Assembly: GCA_016183615.1 (NCBI GenBank)
Contig: JACPEG010000021.1
Coordinates: 62,001 to 126,000 of the forward strand
From: Betaproteobacteria bacterium
GTDB taxonomy: Bacteria > Pseudomonadota > Gammaproteobacteria > Burkholderiales > UBA6910
Direction of reading: 5' to 3'
DNA: 64,000 nt
Position 1 is the stretch's first letter. Every line of letters starts with the position of its first letter. The position numbers and the translations under genes are program-made. Under the pieces are notes generated by a model. It was not told where the DNA came from. It made no database searches and worked only from the letters and a program-made list of their open reading frames with translations. This document shows positions 38,947 to 62,335 of this stretch, in pieces.

Positions 38947-40254
38947 ATGACTCGTGACCAAGAAATTGCTCGACTGAAGAAGGACTGGGCGGAAAACCCC
39001 CGGTGGAAGGGCGTCAACCGCCCGTACACCGCCGAGGACGTGTACCGCCTGCGCGGCACCGTGCAAATCGAGCACACGCTCGCCAAACGCGGCGCCGACA
39101 AGCTCTGGAAGTACCTCAATACTGAACCCTACGTGAATTCATTGGGGGCGCTCACCGGCAACCAGGCGATGCAGCAGGCCCGGGCCGGGCTCAAATCCAT
39201 CTACCTCTCGGGCTGGCAGGTGGCGGCGGACGCCAACGACAGCCTGCAGATGTATCCGGATCAGTCGCTGTACGCAGTCAGTTCGGTGCCCACCGTGGTG
39301 CGGCGGATCAACAACGCCTTCATCCGCGCCGACCAGTTGCATCATGCCGAGGGCAAGGATGATATCGACTGGTTCGTCCCCATCGTGGCCGATGCCGAGG
39401 CCGGTTTCGGCGGCGTGCTGAACGCCCATGAGCTGATGAAAGACATGATCGACGCCGGCGCCGCCGGGGTGCACTTCGAGGACCAGCTCGCCTCGGCCAA
39501 GAAGTGCGGCCACCTGGGCGGCAAGGTTCTGGTGCCCACCCAGGAAGCGGTGAACAAGCTGGGGGCGGCACGTCTCGCGGCCGACCTCTGCGGGGTGCCG
39601 ACGATCCTGCTGGCCCGCACCGACGCGGAAGCCGCCAACCTGCTCACCGCCGACGTGGACGAGCGCGATCGCCCGTTCTGCACCGGGGAGCGCACCGCGG
39701 AGGGCTTCTACCGGGTGAAAAACGGGCTTGAGGCGTCCATCGCCCGCGGCCTGGCCTACGCGCCCTACGCCGACCTGTGCTGGTGCGAAACCGGCAAGCC
39801 GGACCTGGACTTCGCCAAGAAGTGGGCAGAAGCGATCCGCAAGGAATACCCGGGCAAGATGCTGGCCTACAACTGCTCGCCCTCCTTCAACTGGAAGAAG
39901 AACCTGGACGACGCCACCATCGCCAAGTTCCAGCGCGAGCTGGGCGCCATGGGCTACAAGTTCCAGTTCATCACCCTGGCGGGCTTCCATCAGATCAACT
40001 ACGGCATGTGGGAGCTGGCGAGCGGCTACGCCAAGGAAGGCATGAGCGCCTACGTGCGCCTGCAGGAAGCGGAATTCGCCGCGGAGAAGCGCGGCTATAC
40101 CGCCACCAAGCACCAGCGGGAAGTGGGCACCGGCTACTTCGACGAGGTGACGCAGGTGATCCAGGGTGGCCAGTCGTCGCTCACCGCCCTTACCGGCTCC
40201 ACCGAGGAAGAGCAGTTCCACGCCCCGGAAAAGCCCAAGCTTGCAGCGGTGTAA
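38947..40254 (+). CDS. aceA: Isocitrate lyase
   Basis: A 435-residue enzyme that splits isocitrate into glyoxylate and succinate. The catalytic signature [10 protein letters not shown] is present, with [10 protein letters not shown] just before it and [19 protein letters not shown] after it. Length fits E. coli AceA (434). A GAGGAGAG ribosome site precedes the ATG. Together with icd it marks the glyoxylate branch; malate synthase is not in the window. Control is probably through the inverted repeats upstream. A perfect 18-bp hairpin follows. Confidence 0.97.
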
Positions 40255-40275: not shown

Positions 40276-40316
40276 AGACAGAAACGCCGCACCCACAAGG
40301 TGCGGCGTTTCTGTCT
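40276..40316 (+). terminator. Long perfect hairpin after aceA
   Basis: An 18-bp perfect stem (40276-40293 with 40299-40316) and loop CACAA. The following sequence is GATAAACGG rather than a T-run, so it may stabilise the mRNA or act with Rho. It directly precedes a heptamer repeat element. Confidence 0.65.
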
Positions 40317-40319
40317 GAT

Positions 40320-40405
40320 AAACGGGAAACGGTAATCAGGAAATGGCAAGAAACCCGCTGTTCACTGCTCACTGTTTACTGTTCACCGTTCACCTTTCAC
40401 TCTCA
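40320..40405. repeat. Heptamer inverted-array element A1 (CTGTTCA family)
   Basis: Right array at 40358-40405: units CTGTTCA, CTGCTCA, CTGTTTA, CTGTTCA, CCGTTCA, CCTTTCA and a shortened CTCTCA. The last TCA (40403-40405) is the complement of the TGA stop of the HupE-like gene. The left part (from about 40320: TAAACGG, GAAACGG, TAATCAG) is more degenerate and in the opposite orientation. Same family as element A2 at 45361-45446. Confidence 0.75.
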
Positions 40406-41527
40406 CACCGCAATCAGTTTCAGATCGAATACGCGCTCCAGCAGCCATACGAAGGCGAGCGCAGCAATCGCGCACGATCCCCCCACCAGGACCATGCGGC
40501 GGTAGAGCCAGGTTCCGCGCACCCCGAAGGCGAAGGGCAGGAACGCGCTGACGATGGCGAGCTGCCCCACTTCCACGCCCACATTGAAGCCTACCAGCGC
40601 TACCAGCAGCGCTCCCTGAGGCAAGCCCAGGTCCGCCAGAACGCTGGCAAAGCCGAAGCCGTGGACCAGGCCGAAGCCGAAGGCCACCATCCAGCGGCCT
40701 GCCATGACCACCGGAACCACGTTGTTGAGGGCAGCCACCAGGACCGATGCGGCAATGGCGGATTCCACAATTCTCGAAGGGATCGAGATCACGCCCAGGG
40801 CGGCCAGGCTCAGGGTAATGGAATGGGCAACCGTGAAAGACGTCACGATCTTGAACACGTCCCAGAACGCCGGCCGGAACCGCTCCACCGGGTGCCACGT
40901 CCGATTGCGGAATGCCAGCACAGCCGGGAATAGGAGGGAGAGCAGAAACAGGACGTGGTCGAAACCGATCCAGATATGCCACACGCCCTCCGCGCTATAG
41001 TCGAAGAACTGCCTGAGGCGGCTTACCTCCCCTAGGCTGAATTCCTGCGCCGCCTTTTCGGGACTGAAAATCCCGGTGACGGTGCCGCCCGGGTGCTCGA
41101 GCCGAAGCAGGCCCTTGTGCTGGGGATCCAGATCGAAGAACAGCGCGTATTCGACGCTTACCGATTCGATGGCCGAACCGCAATCTGCCGCAAAGCGCAT
41201 CACGGCGTAGGCGCCGTCGCTGTGGTCGTCGACCAGGTGCCCGGTAGCCTGCGTCGGGCAGTGGGCGCGTCCGGCACCGATTTTGAGCCGTGGCAGGGCA
41301 TAGGCCGCGATGTCCCCGTGCCGCGTTCTGAGCTCTCCCCAGTTTATCTCCCCGTCGTCGTTGGCATCGAGCCCGATGGCGAAATCCAGGTCCCGCAGCG
41401 CGATGTCCCACTGGCCCTCGACCCGGGCCCCCTCCACCCGCAGCACGAGGTAGGAATCGCTCGGCTTATGGGCCTCGGCGGCGCCGGCCAATAGCAGCAA
41501 AAGCAGCGCAAGCCCCCACCGCCTCAT
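40403..41527 (-). CDS. HupE/UreJ-like membrane protein with an EF-hand-like loop
   Basis: A 374-residue protein with a signal peptide (about 1-19), an extracytoplasmic domain (about 20-185) and a C-terminal membrane domain of about six or seven helices (about 190-370). The first domain carries DANDDGEINWGEL, a good EF-hand calcium loop. The membrane part has the histidine-containing motifs HIWIGFDHVLFLLSL, TVAHSITL and FGLVHGFGFA of the HupE/UreJ_2 family, often linked to nickel, cobalt or other metal transport. Its start overlaps the TPR gene stop (ATGA). The TGA stop lies at the edge of repeat element A1. The substrate is unknown. Confidence 0.8.
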   Translation of the reverse strand: MRRWGLALLLLLLAGAAEAHKPSDSYLVLRVEGARVEGQWDIALRDLDFAIGLDANDDGEINWGELRTRHGDIAAYALPRLKIGAGRAHCPTQATGHLVDDHSDGAYAVMRFAADCGSAIESVSVEYALFFDLDPQHKGLLRLEHPGGTVTGIFSPEKAAQEFSLGEVSRLRQFFDYSAEGVWHIWIGFDHVLFLLSLLFPAVLAFRNRTWHPVERFRPAFWDVFKIVTSFTVAHSITLSLAALGVISIPSRIVESAIAASVLVAALNNVVPVVMAGRWMVAFGFGLVHGFGFASVLADLGLPQGALLVALVGFNVGVEVGQLAIVSAFLPFAFGVRGTWLYRRMVLVGGSCAIAALAFVWLLERVFDLKLIAV

Positions 41528-42875: not shown

Positions 42876-43220
42876 ATGAGCAAACTACTGTCCGCGCTGA
42901 TCGCGGCCGCGATTGCCGGTACCTTGAGCTTCAATGCCGTGGCCGCCAAGCCTGTGACCGCCGAAGGCACCAAGGCCGAGGCCAAGAAGGAAGAAAAGAA
43001 GGAAATGAAGGGGGAGAAAAAGGTCAAGAAGGAGAAAAAAGCGAAAAAGGAAAAGAAAGCCAAGAAAGAAAAGGCCGCCGAAACTCCCAAAGCTGAGCCG
43101 GCCAAGCCGGCGACCCCGGCGACTCCAGCCACCCAGGGCAAGCCGGCAACCCCAGCCACCCCGGCGACCCCGGCCATCCCGGCCATCCCGGCGAAACCCG
43201 CTGAGCCCGCGAAGAAATAA
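42876..43220 (+). CDS. Secreted Lys/Ala/Pro-rich low-complexity protein 1
   Basis: A 114-residue protein. A signal peptide (MSKLLSALIAAAIAG..., cleavage after about residue 24, VAA|K) is followed by a strongly basic region of KKE and KEKK units (about 30-68) and a tail of PATPATP, PAIPAIP and PAKPAEP repeats. It resembles histone H1 tails in composition but has an export signal; the closest idea is a periplasmic polycation such as the acid-shock protein Asr. It has its own sigma-70 promoter and terminator. Its neighbour at 43429 is a paralogue with almost the same signal peptide. Confidence 0.75.
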   Translation: MSKLLSALIAAAIAGTLSFNAVAAKPVTAEGTKAEAKKEEKKEMKGEKKVKKEKKAKKEKKAKKEKAAETPKAEPAKPATPATPATQGKPATPATPATPAIPAIPAKPAEPAKK

Positions 43221-43242
43221 GGGAACCGGAAGCGATCTCCAG

Positions 43243-43275
43243 GGAAAAGGTGGGAGTGCCCGCCTTTTCCTTTTG
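43243..43275 (+). terminator. Terminator after lysine-rich gene 1
   Basis: GGAAAAGGTGGG pairs with CCCGCCTTTTCC (43243-43254 with 43259-43270, one G-T pair), loop AGTG, followed by TTTT. Confidence 0.8.
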
Positions 43276-43428
43276 TGACTCAATACATTACAATTTTCCG
43301 GCCGGCTTTTCGGGAGGGAACGGGGACTTGTTCCCGGGACGTCAACCATTTTCGATCATGGCCGTTAAAGCATGCACCGGCGAAAGTCGGTTTATGGTCT
43401 TATATAACTAACCTCTAGAGGAAATACC

Positions 43429-43737
43429 ATGAGCAAACTGCTGTCCGCCCTGATCGTCGCCGCCCTCGGCGCCGCCCTGAGCCTGAACGCCGTGGCTGCC
43501 AAGCATATGGCCGCCGAGGCGCCCAAGGCCGAGATGAAGAAGGAAGAAATGAAGAAGGAAGAAAAGAAGGAAATGACGAAGGAAGAGAAGAAGGGGAAGA
43601 AGGCCACCAAGAAGGCCACCAAGAAGGAAGCCAAGGCGGAAAAGAAGGAAATGAAGGGAGAAGGCAAGAATCCCTGCGCCGCGAAGAATCCCTGCGCCGC
43701 GAAGAAGGAGATGAAGAAGGAAGAAATGAAGAAGTAA
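43429..43737 (+). CDS. Secreted Lys/Glu-rich protein 2 with NPCAAK repeat
   Basis: A 102-residue paralogue of the preceding gene. The signal peptide MSKLLSALIVAALGAALS matches it, with cleavage after about residue 24. The mature part is KKEE, KKEMTKEE and KKATKK repeats and ends with NPCAAKNPCAAK followed by KKEMKKEEMKK. The NPCAAK double motif gives two cysteines and occurs in other low-complexity secreted proteins of proteobacteria; metal binding is possible. A TATAAC -10-like box (43403-43408) and an AGAGGAAA ribosome site precede it. The proline tail of paralogue 1 is absent. Confidence 0.75.
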   Translation: MSKLLSALIVAALGAALSLNAVAAKHMAAEAPKAEMKKEEMKKEEKKEMTKEEKKGKKATKKATKKEAKAEKKEMKGEGKNPCAAKNPCAAKKEMKKEEMKK

Positions 43738-43850: not shown

Positions 43851-44297
43851 ATGGTCTGGAAACCCAATGTCACCGTCGCTGCCGTCATCGAGCGCGACGG
43901 ACGCTTTCTCCTGGTGGAAGAGCACACCGTGAAGGGCGTGCGTTTCAATCAGCCCGCAGGCCACCTTGAGCGCCACGAATCCCTGGTGCAGGGAGTGGTG
44001 CGCGAGACGCTGGAGGAAACGGCCTACCATTTCGCTCCGGAGGCGCTGCTCGGGATTTACCGATGGCATCACCGCGGGACCCGCACCACCTACCTGCGCT
44101 TTGCTTTCGTTGGCCGGGTCACCGGTTTCGAGAGCGGGCGCAAGCTGGACGAGGGGATCATCGGCGCCCACTGGCTGAGCGTGGAGGAGATCCGCTGCAA
44201 CTCGCCTCAGCATCGCAGCCCGCTGGTCCTGCGTTGCATCGAGGACTACCTCGCGGGCAGGCGCTACCCCCTGGAGCTGATCACCCACTATGACTGA
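43851..44297 (+). CDS. nudJ: Nudix phosphohydrolase NudJ
   Basis: A 148-residue Nudix hydrolase. The Nudix box is [20 protein letters not shown] followed by TA, where the family glycine is replaced by Ala; the catalytic REtxEE core is intact. E. coli NudJ hydrolyses nucleoside tri- and diphosphates and HMP-PP and is also adjacent to mnmA. The ATG at 43851 is preferred over a TTG at 43839; a TAGAAT box at 43834-43839 predicts a leader of only about 5 nt. The gene overlaps mnmA by eight bases. Confidence 0.9.
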
Positions 44298-45363
44298 GGG
44301 CCGCGGCAGGCGTGTCATCGTCGGCATGTCGGGCGGCGTGGATTCCTCCGTCGCGGCGTTGCTGCTCAAGGAACAGGGCTACGAGGTGGTGGGCCTGTTC
44401 ATGAAGAACTGGGAGGACGACGACACCGACGAGTACTGCACCTCGCGCCAGGACCTGGTGGATGCGGTGTCGGTCGCCGACAAGATCGGCATCGAGATCG
44501 AGGCCGTGAATTTTTCCGCCGAGTACAAGGAGCGGGTGTTCAGCAACTTCCTCTCGGAATACCAGGCGGGGCGCACGCCCAACCCCGACGTGCTGTGCAA
44601 TGCGGAGATCAAGTTCAGGGCCTTCCTCGACCACGCGCTCAACCTTGGAGCGCATTTCATCGCCACCGGCCATTACGCCCAGGTGCGGGAAACTGACGGC
44701 CGCCACGAGCTGCTGAAGGCCGAGGACGGCACCAAGGACCAGAGCTATTTCCTGTACCGCCTGAACCAGCGGCAGCTGTCGAAGACGCTGTTCCCCCTGG
44801 GCGGGCTTTACAAGCGGGACGTGCGGGAAATCGCCAGAAAGGCGGGGTTGCCCACTTTCGCCAAGAAGGATTCCACCGGCATCTGTTTCATCGGCGAACG
44901 GCCGTTCCGGGAGTTCCTGAACCGCTATCTCCCGGCCCGGCCCGGGAACATGGAGACCCTCGACGGGAAAGTGGTGGGGCGTCACACGGGGCTCATGTTC
45001 CATACCATCGGCCAGCGGCATGGCCTCGGGATAGGCGGTGCCGGGGAACCCTGGTTCGTGGCTGGCAAGGATCTGGCGCGCAACGTGCTCCTCGTGGTGC
45101 AGGGCCACGACCACCCGGCCCTTTACCGGGAACGGCTCAGTGCCACCGACCTCACCTGGGTAAGCGGCGAGGCACCCCACTGCCACTGGGTGTATGGTGC
45201 CAAGACCCGATACCGCCAGGCCGATGCGCCGTGCAGTCTGGCGCGCGTCACGGATGGAACCTGCGAGGTGGAATTCGCCCAGCCCCAGTGGGCGATCACC
45301 CCGGGACAATCGGTGGTGATCTATGAGAGCCGGGTGTGCCTGGGAGGGGGGGTAATTCAGTGA
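44290..45363 (+). CDS. mnmA: tRNA-specific 2-thiouridylase MnmA
   Basis: A 357-residue enzyme that puts sulfur on U34 of Lys, Glu and Gln tRNAs. The PP-loop [20 protein letters not shown] is near the N-terminus. The two catalytic cysteines sit in CNAEIKF and in [10 protein letters not shown]. Other typical segments are TGHYAQV and [10 protein letters not shown]. It is translationally coupled to nudJ. The stop TGA is the first three bases of a heptamer unit of repeat element A2. Confidence 0.97.
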
Positions 45364-45443
45364 ACAGTAAACGGTAAACCGTAACTCCGGTCGCCGGGGT
45401 GGCACTGTTCACTGTTCACTGTTCACTGCTCACGGTTCACGGT

Positions 45444-45446
<3 letters not shown>
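45361..45446. repeat. Heptamer inverted-array element A2 (CTGTTCA family) spanning both stop codons
   Basis: The left array on the plus strand is TGAACAG, TAAACGG, TAAACCG, TAA (45361-45384); the right array is CTGTTCA three times, CTGCTCA, CGGTTCA twice (45405-45446). A 20-bp GC-rich spacer lies between. The left array begins with the mnmA stop codon (TGA, 45361-45363); the right array ends with TCA (45444-45446), which is the gst stop on the minus strand. The element fills the whole mnmA-gst gap. Confidence 0.85.
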
Positions 45447-47572
<2,126 letters not shown>

Positions 47573-61364: not shown

Positions 61365-62335
61365 TACAATCTCCGGGAAAGCAGGACCAGCATCACCGGC
61401 ACCCCGAGCAGCGCGGTGAGCACGCCCACCGGAAGCTGCTGCGGCGCCCACAGCACCCGGGCCAGGGTATCGGCGACGACGAGAAATCCGCCACCCGCAA
61501 GCACCGCACCGGGAACGAGATAGCGATAATCGGTGATCCCGAGGAGCCGGATCCCGTGGGGAATCACCAGGCCGACGAAGCCGATGGCCCCGCCCACCAT
61601 CAGGGCGGTGGCCGTGACCAGCGAGGCGCCGAAGTAGACCACGAGCTGCAGCGGCCCCACCGCCACTCCCAATGTGGCGGCCTTGGTGTGCCCCAGGGAG
61701 AGCACGTTGAGGGCCCCCGCCAACGCGAGTGCGACGAAGGAGGCGAGGATGAGCACGATCCATGCGGCGAGCACCCCTTCGGCCTGCGACAGGTCGCCCA
61801 TGAGCCAGAACAGCATGCCCTTCACCGCCGCCGAGGGCGCGAGGCTGAGCAGCAGGCTGATGACGGCGCCGAATCCCGCCGAAAGCATCACGCCGGTGAG
61901 GAGCAGCCGGTAGACATTCCAGTCGGCAGCCCGATAGCTCACGACGAATACGATCCCGATGGCGGCCATGGCGCCCGCCAGCGCCGCAACGTTGATCGCG
62001 ACGCCCGCCAGCCCCAGAAGCATCGCCCCGAGAGCGCCCACCGCCGCGCCGCCGGAAACGCCGAGCACATAGGGGTCGGCGAGGGGATTTCTGAGGAGCA
62101 CCTGCAGCAGCGCGCCCGCCAGCGCCAGCAACCCGCCGCAGGCAAAGGCCGCGGCGACCCGCGGCGCCCGCAGTTGCCAGACGATCTGCCCCGTCACGTC
62201 ATCGGACGGCGCAACGAGGGCCTTCAGCACCGCGACCCAGGAAAGCGGCGCGCTGCCCCAGAGCAGCCCGACGAAAAAGGCGAACAGTGCGATCAGCGCG
62301 ATGAGAACGAGAACCCGGCCCCTGCGGTCCGTCAT
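61364..62335 (-). CDS. FecCD/BtuC-type ABC transporter permease
   Basis: A 323-residue permease with about ten hydrophobic helices. Typical segments are QLRAPRVAAAFACGGLLALAG, LLRNPLADPYVLGVSGGAAVGA and VGGAIGFVGLVIPHGIRLLG. The start at 62335 (MTDRRGRVLVLIAL) is the sensible one. Coupled to the ATPase gene by a one-base overlap. Likely cobalamin, hemin or iron chelate uptake; vitamin B12 would fit a bacterium with a SUMT gene but is only a guess. Confidence 0.92.
   Translation of the reverse strand: MTDRRGRVLVLIALIALFAFFVGLLWGSAPLSWVAVLKALVAPSDDVTGQIVWQLRAPRVAAAFACGGLLALAGALLQVLLRNPLADPYVLGVSGGAAVGALGAMLLGLAGVAINVAALAGAMAAIGIVFVVSYRAADWNVYRLLLTGVMLSAGFGAVISLLLSLAPSAAVKGMLFWLMGDLSQAEGVLAAWIVLILASFVALALAGALNVLSLGHTKAATLGVAVGPLQLVVYFGASLVTATALMVGGAIGFVGLVIPHGIRLLGITDYRYLVPGAVLAGGGFLVVADTLARVLWAPQQLPVGVLTALLGVPVMLVLLSRRL

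Follow-up and report, generated by a model that had tools for sequence, protein, structure and literature searches.

Dispersed two-armed heptamer arrays at gene edges in a betaproteobacterial genome

The heptad array that ends in the stop codon of a HupE/UreJ-domain gene belongs to a family of about 58 elements found throughout the genome under study, better described as an inverted pair around a single-copy spacer, [GTRAACR]n–spacer–[YGTTYAC]n. We lean towards the view that these arrays constitute a dispersed two-armed heptamer satellite, neutral to mildly selfish and bounded by coding sequence; such a character is the most likely one for the element, rather than that of a dedicated terminator or regulatory RNA. 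The analysed DNA (the window) comprised 64,000 nucleotides, positions 62001–126000 of one contig (C38) of a 3.74-Mb draft genome in 63 contigs. The features discussed are collected in Table 1.

Table 1. Coordinates of the heptad elements, neighbouring genes and related features (window positions, except for the last row).
Feature	Position	Strand	Remarks
aceA, isocitrate lyase family	38947–40254	+	Pfam ICL, E 8.5e-103
Perfect 18-bp hairpin 3' of aceA	40276–40316	+	Stems 40276–40293/40299–40316, loop CACAA
First element, left arm (degenerate)	40318–40345	+	ATAAACG GGAAACG GTAATCA GGAAATG; GTRANNR-type; partial pairing with right arm
First element, spacer	40346–40357		From sequence
First element, right arm	40358–40405	+	Seven YGTTYAC-type units, last one short; final TCA is the HupE/UreJ stop
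Unit 1	40358–40364		CTGTTCA
Unit 2	40365–40371		CTGCTCA
Unit 3	40372–40378		CTGTTTA
Unit 4	40379–40385		CTGTTCA
Unit 5	40386–40392		CCGTTCA
Unit 6	40393–40399		CCTTTCA
Unit 7	40400–40405		CTCTCA (short, 6 nt)
HupE/UreJ-domain protein gene	40403–41491	-	Pfam HupE_UreJ_2, E 2e-48
mnmA-type tRNA thiouridylase gene	44290–45363	+	Pfam tRNA_Me_trans, E 1.8e-80
Second element, left arm	45360–45387	+	First TGA (45361–45363) is the mnmA stop codon
Second element, right arm	45405–45447	+	TCA at 45444–45446 is the GST stop codon; TRF-supported
Glutathione S-transferase-family (GST) gene	45444–46052	-	Pfam GST_N_2, E 8.7e-20
Dispersed palindromic repeats	L253: 2607–2674, 2816–2881, 13213–13330, 14613–14686		Family distinct from heptads

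The seven consecutive CTGTTCA-family units of the original prediction, ending in the TGA of the HupE-like gene, were borne out by the sequence, and TRF detected the same array independently (40358–40405, period 7, 6.3 copies, score 53). The stop codon of the HupE_UreJ_2 gene, read on the minus strand, occupies the last three bases of the array (40403–40405). The degenerate opposing array postulated 3' of the 18-bp aceA hairpin was recovered as a decayed left arm; the hairpin itself is a structure distinct from the heptad array and no part of it. The element is not a single array, as had been proposed, but a two-armed structure, and the idea of a decayed second arm holds. This arm pair folds weakly (40318–40405, z of -2.4 and -2.2) compared with the second window element (45356–45452, z of -4.9 and -4.5). 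Between the two, at 42876–43737, the window contains low-complexity reading frames rich in lysine, alanine and proline, with many internal tandem repeats.

Searches of the whole genome with CTGTTCACTGTTCA, allowing up to two mismatches, gave 145 matches versus six with the reversed control, while an exact degenerate two-unit pattern gave 160 versus none. The matches resolved into 44 two-armed elements in left-right order and 14 others, mostly single arms. Arms had mostly 2–6 units and spacers mostly 6–41 bp. The unit consensus derived from these copies is GTRAACR, in which the two purine positions are mixed and the remaining ones are 84–98% conserved. When the spacers of this genome were compared, no pair was alike above chance; therefore, conservation of the element in this genome is confined to the heptad and the two-armed layout. 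The two window loci do represent one element class with a common heptad and different flanks, as first suggested, but conservation of anything further did not stand. Nothing in Rfam scored above the gathering threshold over the arrays.

Genes were called with an in-frame hexamer model, which recovered aceA, hupE, mnmA and GST, and every genomic match site was examined. None of the approximately 58 elements lay within a gene; they occupied gene-to-gene gaps, in the contexts +- (15), ++ (19), -- (23) and -+ (1), as against 44, 128, 177 and 43 background pairs, respectively. About a quarter were placed between convergent genes and nearly all the others between co-directional genes, with one arm abutting the start codon. 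Among 63 stop-facing edges, 60 were less than 12 bp from the stop codon, which was located inside the array in 30 cases (28 times as the TRA of an in-register unit) and at 0–11 bp in another 30, whereas 23 of 39 start-facing edges were within 12 bp; any single distance may be wrong by one unit or one codon, because up to two mismatches per unit were allowed and the gene model for starts was simple. The stop-codon position, first taken as a trait of the element, was confirmed at both window loci but turned out to be an edge effect found at nearly every gene boundary. An SD-like motif preceded none of the 25 starts situated up to 15 bp from an array, versus 32.5% of other genes. Provision of stop codons in all frames, an appealing driver, was rejected: within the unit, T2 is more variable than G1 and A4, and sister heptads such as GTTATC and GTCAAC contain no TRA.

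Each species was represented by a single genome, in most cases assembled from a metagenome. Array-free syntenic sites were found in three genomes of the same family (G001–G003) at five elements, namely both window elements and three others; synteny at the window elements was provided by G002 for both and by G001 and G003 for mnmA–GST. G001 and G003 have a similar hairpin 3' of aceA. The products of mnmA, GST and infC (the last named from synteny and a lysine-rich C-terminus judged by eye) end with the same residue in the studied genome and the relative, with the stop position unchanged, which indicates that the array begins at the ancestral stop codon, replacing or displacing the old gap. Turnover was visible in a single genus from the same order: its genomes G026, G153 and G115 carry two-armed arrays at one common site, with GTGAAC-type units in two of them and a long GTAATTG run in the third. 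At a site 3' of a SecA-like C-terminus, G026 and G153 have a spacer in common, but their right arms differ, one being of the CGTTCAC type and the other (CTTTCAC)6, so a spacer can outlast changes in the type and number of units; G115 has an unrelated insertion of ~700 bp there. At a third site, G153 shows a partial array at most and G115 shows none. Other dispersed palindromic repeats, of high copy number (e.g., CCACGGAGAACACGGATACCC...), were noted in G072 and G153.

Within the order, the strict two-arm pattern occurred in 7 of 399 sampled genomes (controls, 0), and within the same family the other two genera sampled had essentially no arrays. At least 115 stretches matched in the named collection, for the whole of which an arithmetic estimate gives ~0.1 chance matches. 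The GTRAACR-type unit is patchily spread over about ten other phyla among the matches listed, whose titles include Gemmatimonadota, Bacteroidota, Chloroflexota, Cyanobacteriota, Synergistota, Deltaproteobacteria/Desulfobacteria, Armatimonadota, Acidobacteriota, Planctomycetota, Bacillota and Betaproteobacteria; isolates of Nostoc, Brasilonema, Fibrella, Hymenobacter and Bacteroides are among them. Carriers available as isolates include Nostoc spongiaeforme FACHB-130 and Hymenobacter terricola 3F2. E. coli gave no match. Four plasmid records matched, three of them cyanobacterial, and four matches were in viral contigs, so the arrays are not mainly phage-borne. A run of 13 GTGAACN units was seen in Desulfobacteraceae (L134:1922), and in Acidobacteria the heptad element is itself repeated in tandem, at ~128 bp per copy (L175:2822–3321). 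In the related loci, 234 of 1335 in-register heptads outside the matched arms fitted GTNANC, compared with 2–7 in shifted registers; beyond GTRAAC these were mainly GTCAAC, GTAAGC, GTTATC and GTGATC. That GTRAACR and its sister heptads form one bacteria-wide repeat class, its arrays seeded and homogenised at gene edges by common trans-acting machinery and its dialects differing by lineage, is a speculative extension which we regard as rather unlikely.

According to the satellite interpretation, GTRAACR arrays run inward from each gene edge toward a short unrelated spacer, slippage in 7-nt steps or unequal exchange would add, remove and homogenise units, and new sites would be seeded. Coding sequence would halt the spread, so that an array comes to its end either at a stop codon, the TRA of which is then taken up as a unit, or just short of a start codon. 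Counting against it, slippage alone does not account for the recurrence of one unit at 58 sites that are unlinked, or in different phyla. Given the strong mean folding, the arrays may also have some role at the RNA or cruciform level. Also, some copies elsewhere have spacers in common, which looks like whole-element copying: TGCTCCTTGATCT or its reverse complement in seven Saprospiraceae loci (L115, L126, L151, L166, L176, L183 and L193), where whole copies seem to spread, and a spacer resembling GATCATGCGCTGGCTCCGCGACT in four deltaproteobacterial loci (L149, L174, L187 and L190).

These common spacers, the patchy distribution, the empty sites in relatives and the inverted arms would also fit a mobile palindromic element, REP/REPIN- or MITE-like, inserted at gene ends and moved in trans by a transposase. 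We consider this unlikely for the elements studied, as own-genome spacers lacked matches above chance, a non-systematic look at the site alignments revealed no target duplication, and the numbers of Y1/RAYT transposase genes failed to follow the arrays (two in G000, none in the carrier G039, 18 in the array-free G059 and nine in G022). The arrays resemble REP/REPIN–RAYT systems in being short, intergenic, paired inverted repeats; the conserved repeat with its RAYT partner was nevertheless rejected in the absence of a fixed REP sequence, with unrelated spacers and no tracking by Y1.

A functional RNA hairpin, acting as a bidirectional terminator or mRNA 3'-end stabiliser, is improbable, despite folds that are stable on both strands (mean -38 kcal/mol, z -4.5) and the enrichment at gene 3' ends with depletion between divergent genes. 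The strong folds arise because the arms have one unit in common. The arms are as similar within an element (0.769) as between elements (0.774 ± 0.009, p = 0.74), i.e., independent; no compensatory pairing between them was found among own-genome elements, nor any RNA-strand asymmetry, G.U being about as frequent as A.C in co-directional contexts. Moreover, aceA is already followed by a hairpin of its own, which lies before the array. A GC-rich intrinsic terminator with a T-run is not supported, given that at least five T in the 10 nt 3' of an arm occurred in 12 of 102 cases (control, 7.9%), no clear enrichment, and the window arrays had no terminator-like score.

Little credence is given to binding sites of a putative sequence-specific protein with heptad "dialects" differing by lineage. 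The high conservation, within this genome, of most unit positions around two free purines and the variation of unit type between lineages agree with such sites, but no binding protein was identified, and at single sites the unit type changes from one congener to another. Finally, coincidence of the two window arrays is ruled out by the genome-wide family and by the 12 window matches to CBGTTYACBGTTYAC (up to one mismatch), all inside these arrays, versus a mean of 0.07 in dinucleotide shuffles.

The arrays extend the known class of intergenic heptameric repeats by a new unit variant. In the available parts of Rehm et al. 2015 (PMC4692102), the Xanthomonas GGGAATC/GGGANTN repeats are described as intergenic, G-rich and quadruplex-forming, mostly with ~4 units, arranged in 70–75 inverted convergent pairs per genome, rarer between divergent genes, and retained beside the same genes by two species, with differences in length and sequence. 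The 7-nt unit, few copies, inverted pairs and gene-context bias are similar here; the unit GTRAACR, the flush stop-codon fit, the independence of arms and the wide cross-phylum spread differ from what those parts report. The same text cites tandem heptanucleotide repeats of the cyanobacterium Calothrix, to which our arrays can be likened by that description. The TAACTGA direct repeats of Beggiatoaceae, Cyanobacteria and Bacteroidetes, as presented in the accessible sections of MacGregor 2015 (PMC4679880), are intergenic, taxonomically patchy, vary by 7-nt indels between strains and abut RBS-less starts; the Beggiatoa genome has them almost exclusively in direct orientation, a single case being inverted. 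The intergenic heptads described here are likewise patchy and abut starts without an SD-like motif, but own-genome units are versions of GTRAACR and inverted pairs dominate. GTTATCA is the reverse complement of a TAACTGA rotation, and this rotation (GTTATC) stands in register beside GTRAAC units in mixed arrays, seen only in the related loci. The GTRAACR unit is not reported in those portions of either paper, and our literature search found no bacterial report of the literal repeat sequence.

So far, heptameric repeats of bacteria have been described group by group, each time as an oddity of the group concerned. The loci described here show the TAACTGA type sharing arrays with a second unit and the inverted-pair architecture occurring outside Xanthomonas. 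At orthologous sites unit turnover can be read directly, and the loci make slippage, transposition and maintenance by a binding protein testable against one another.
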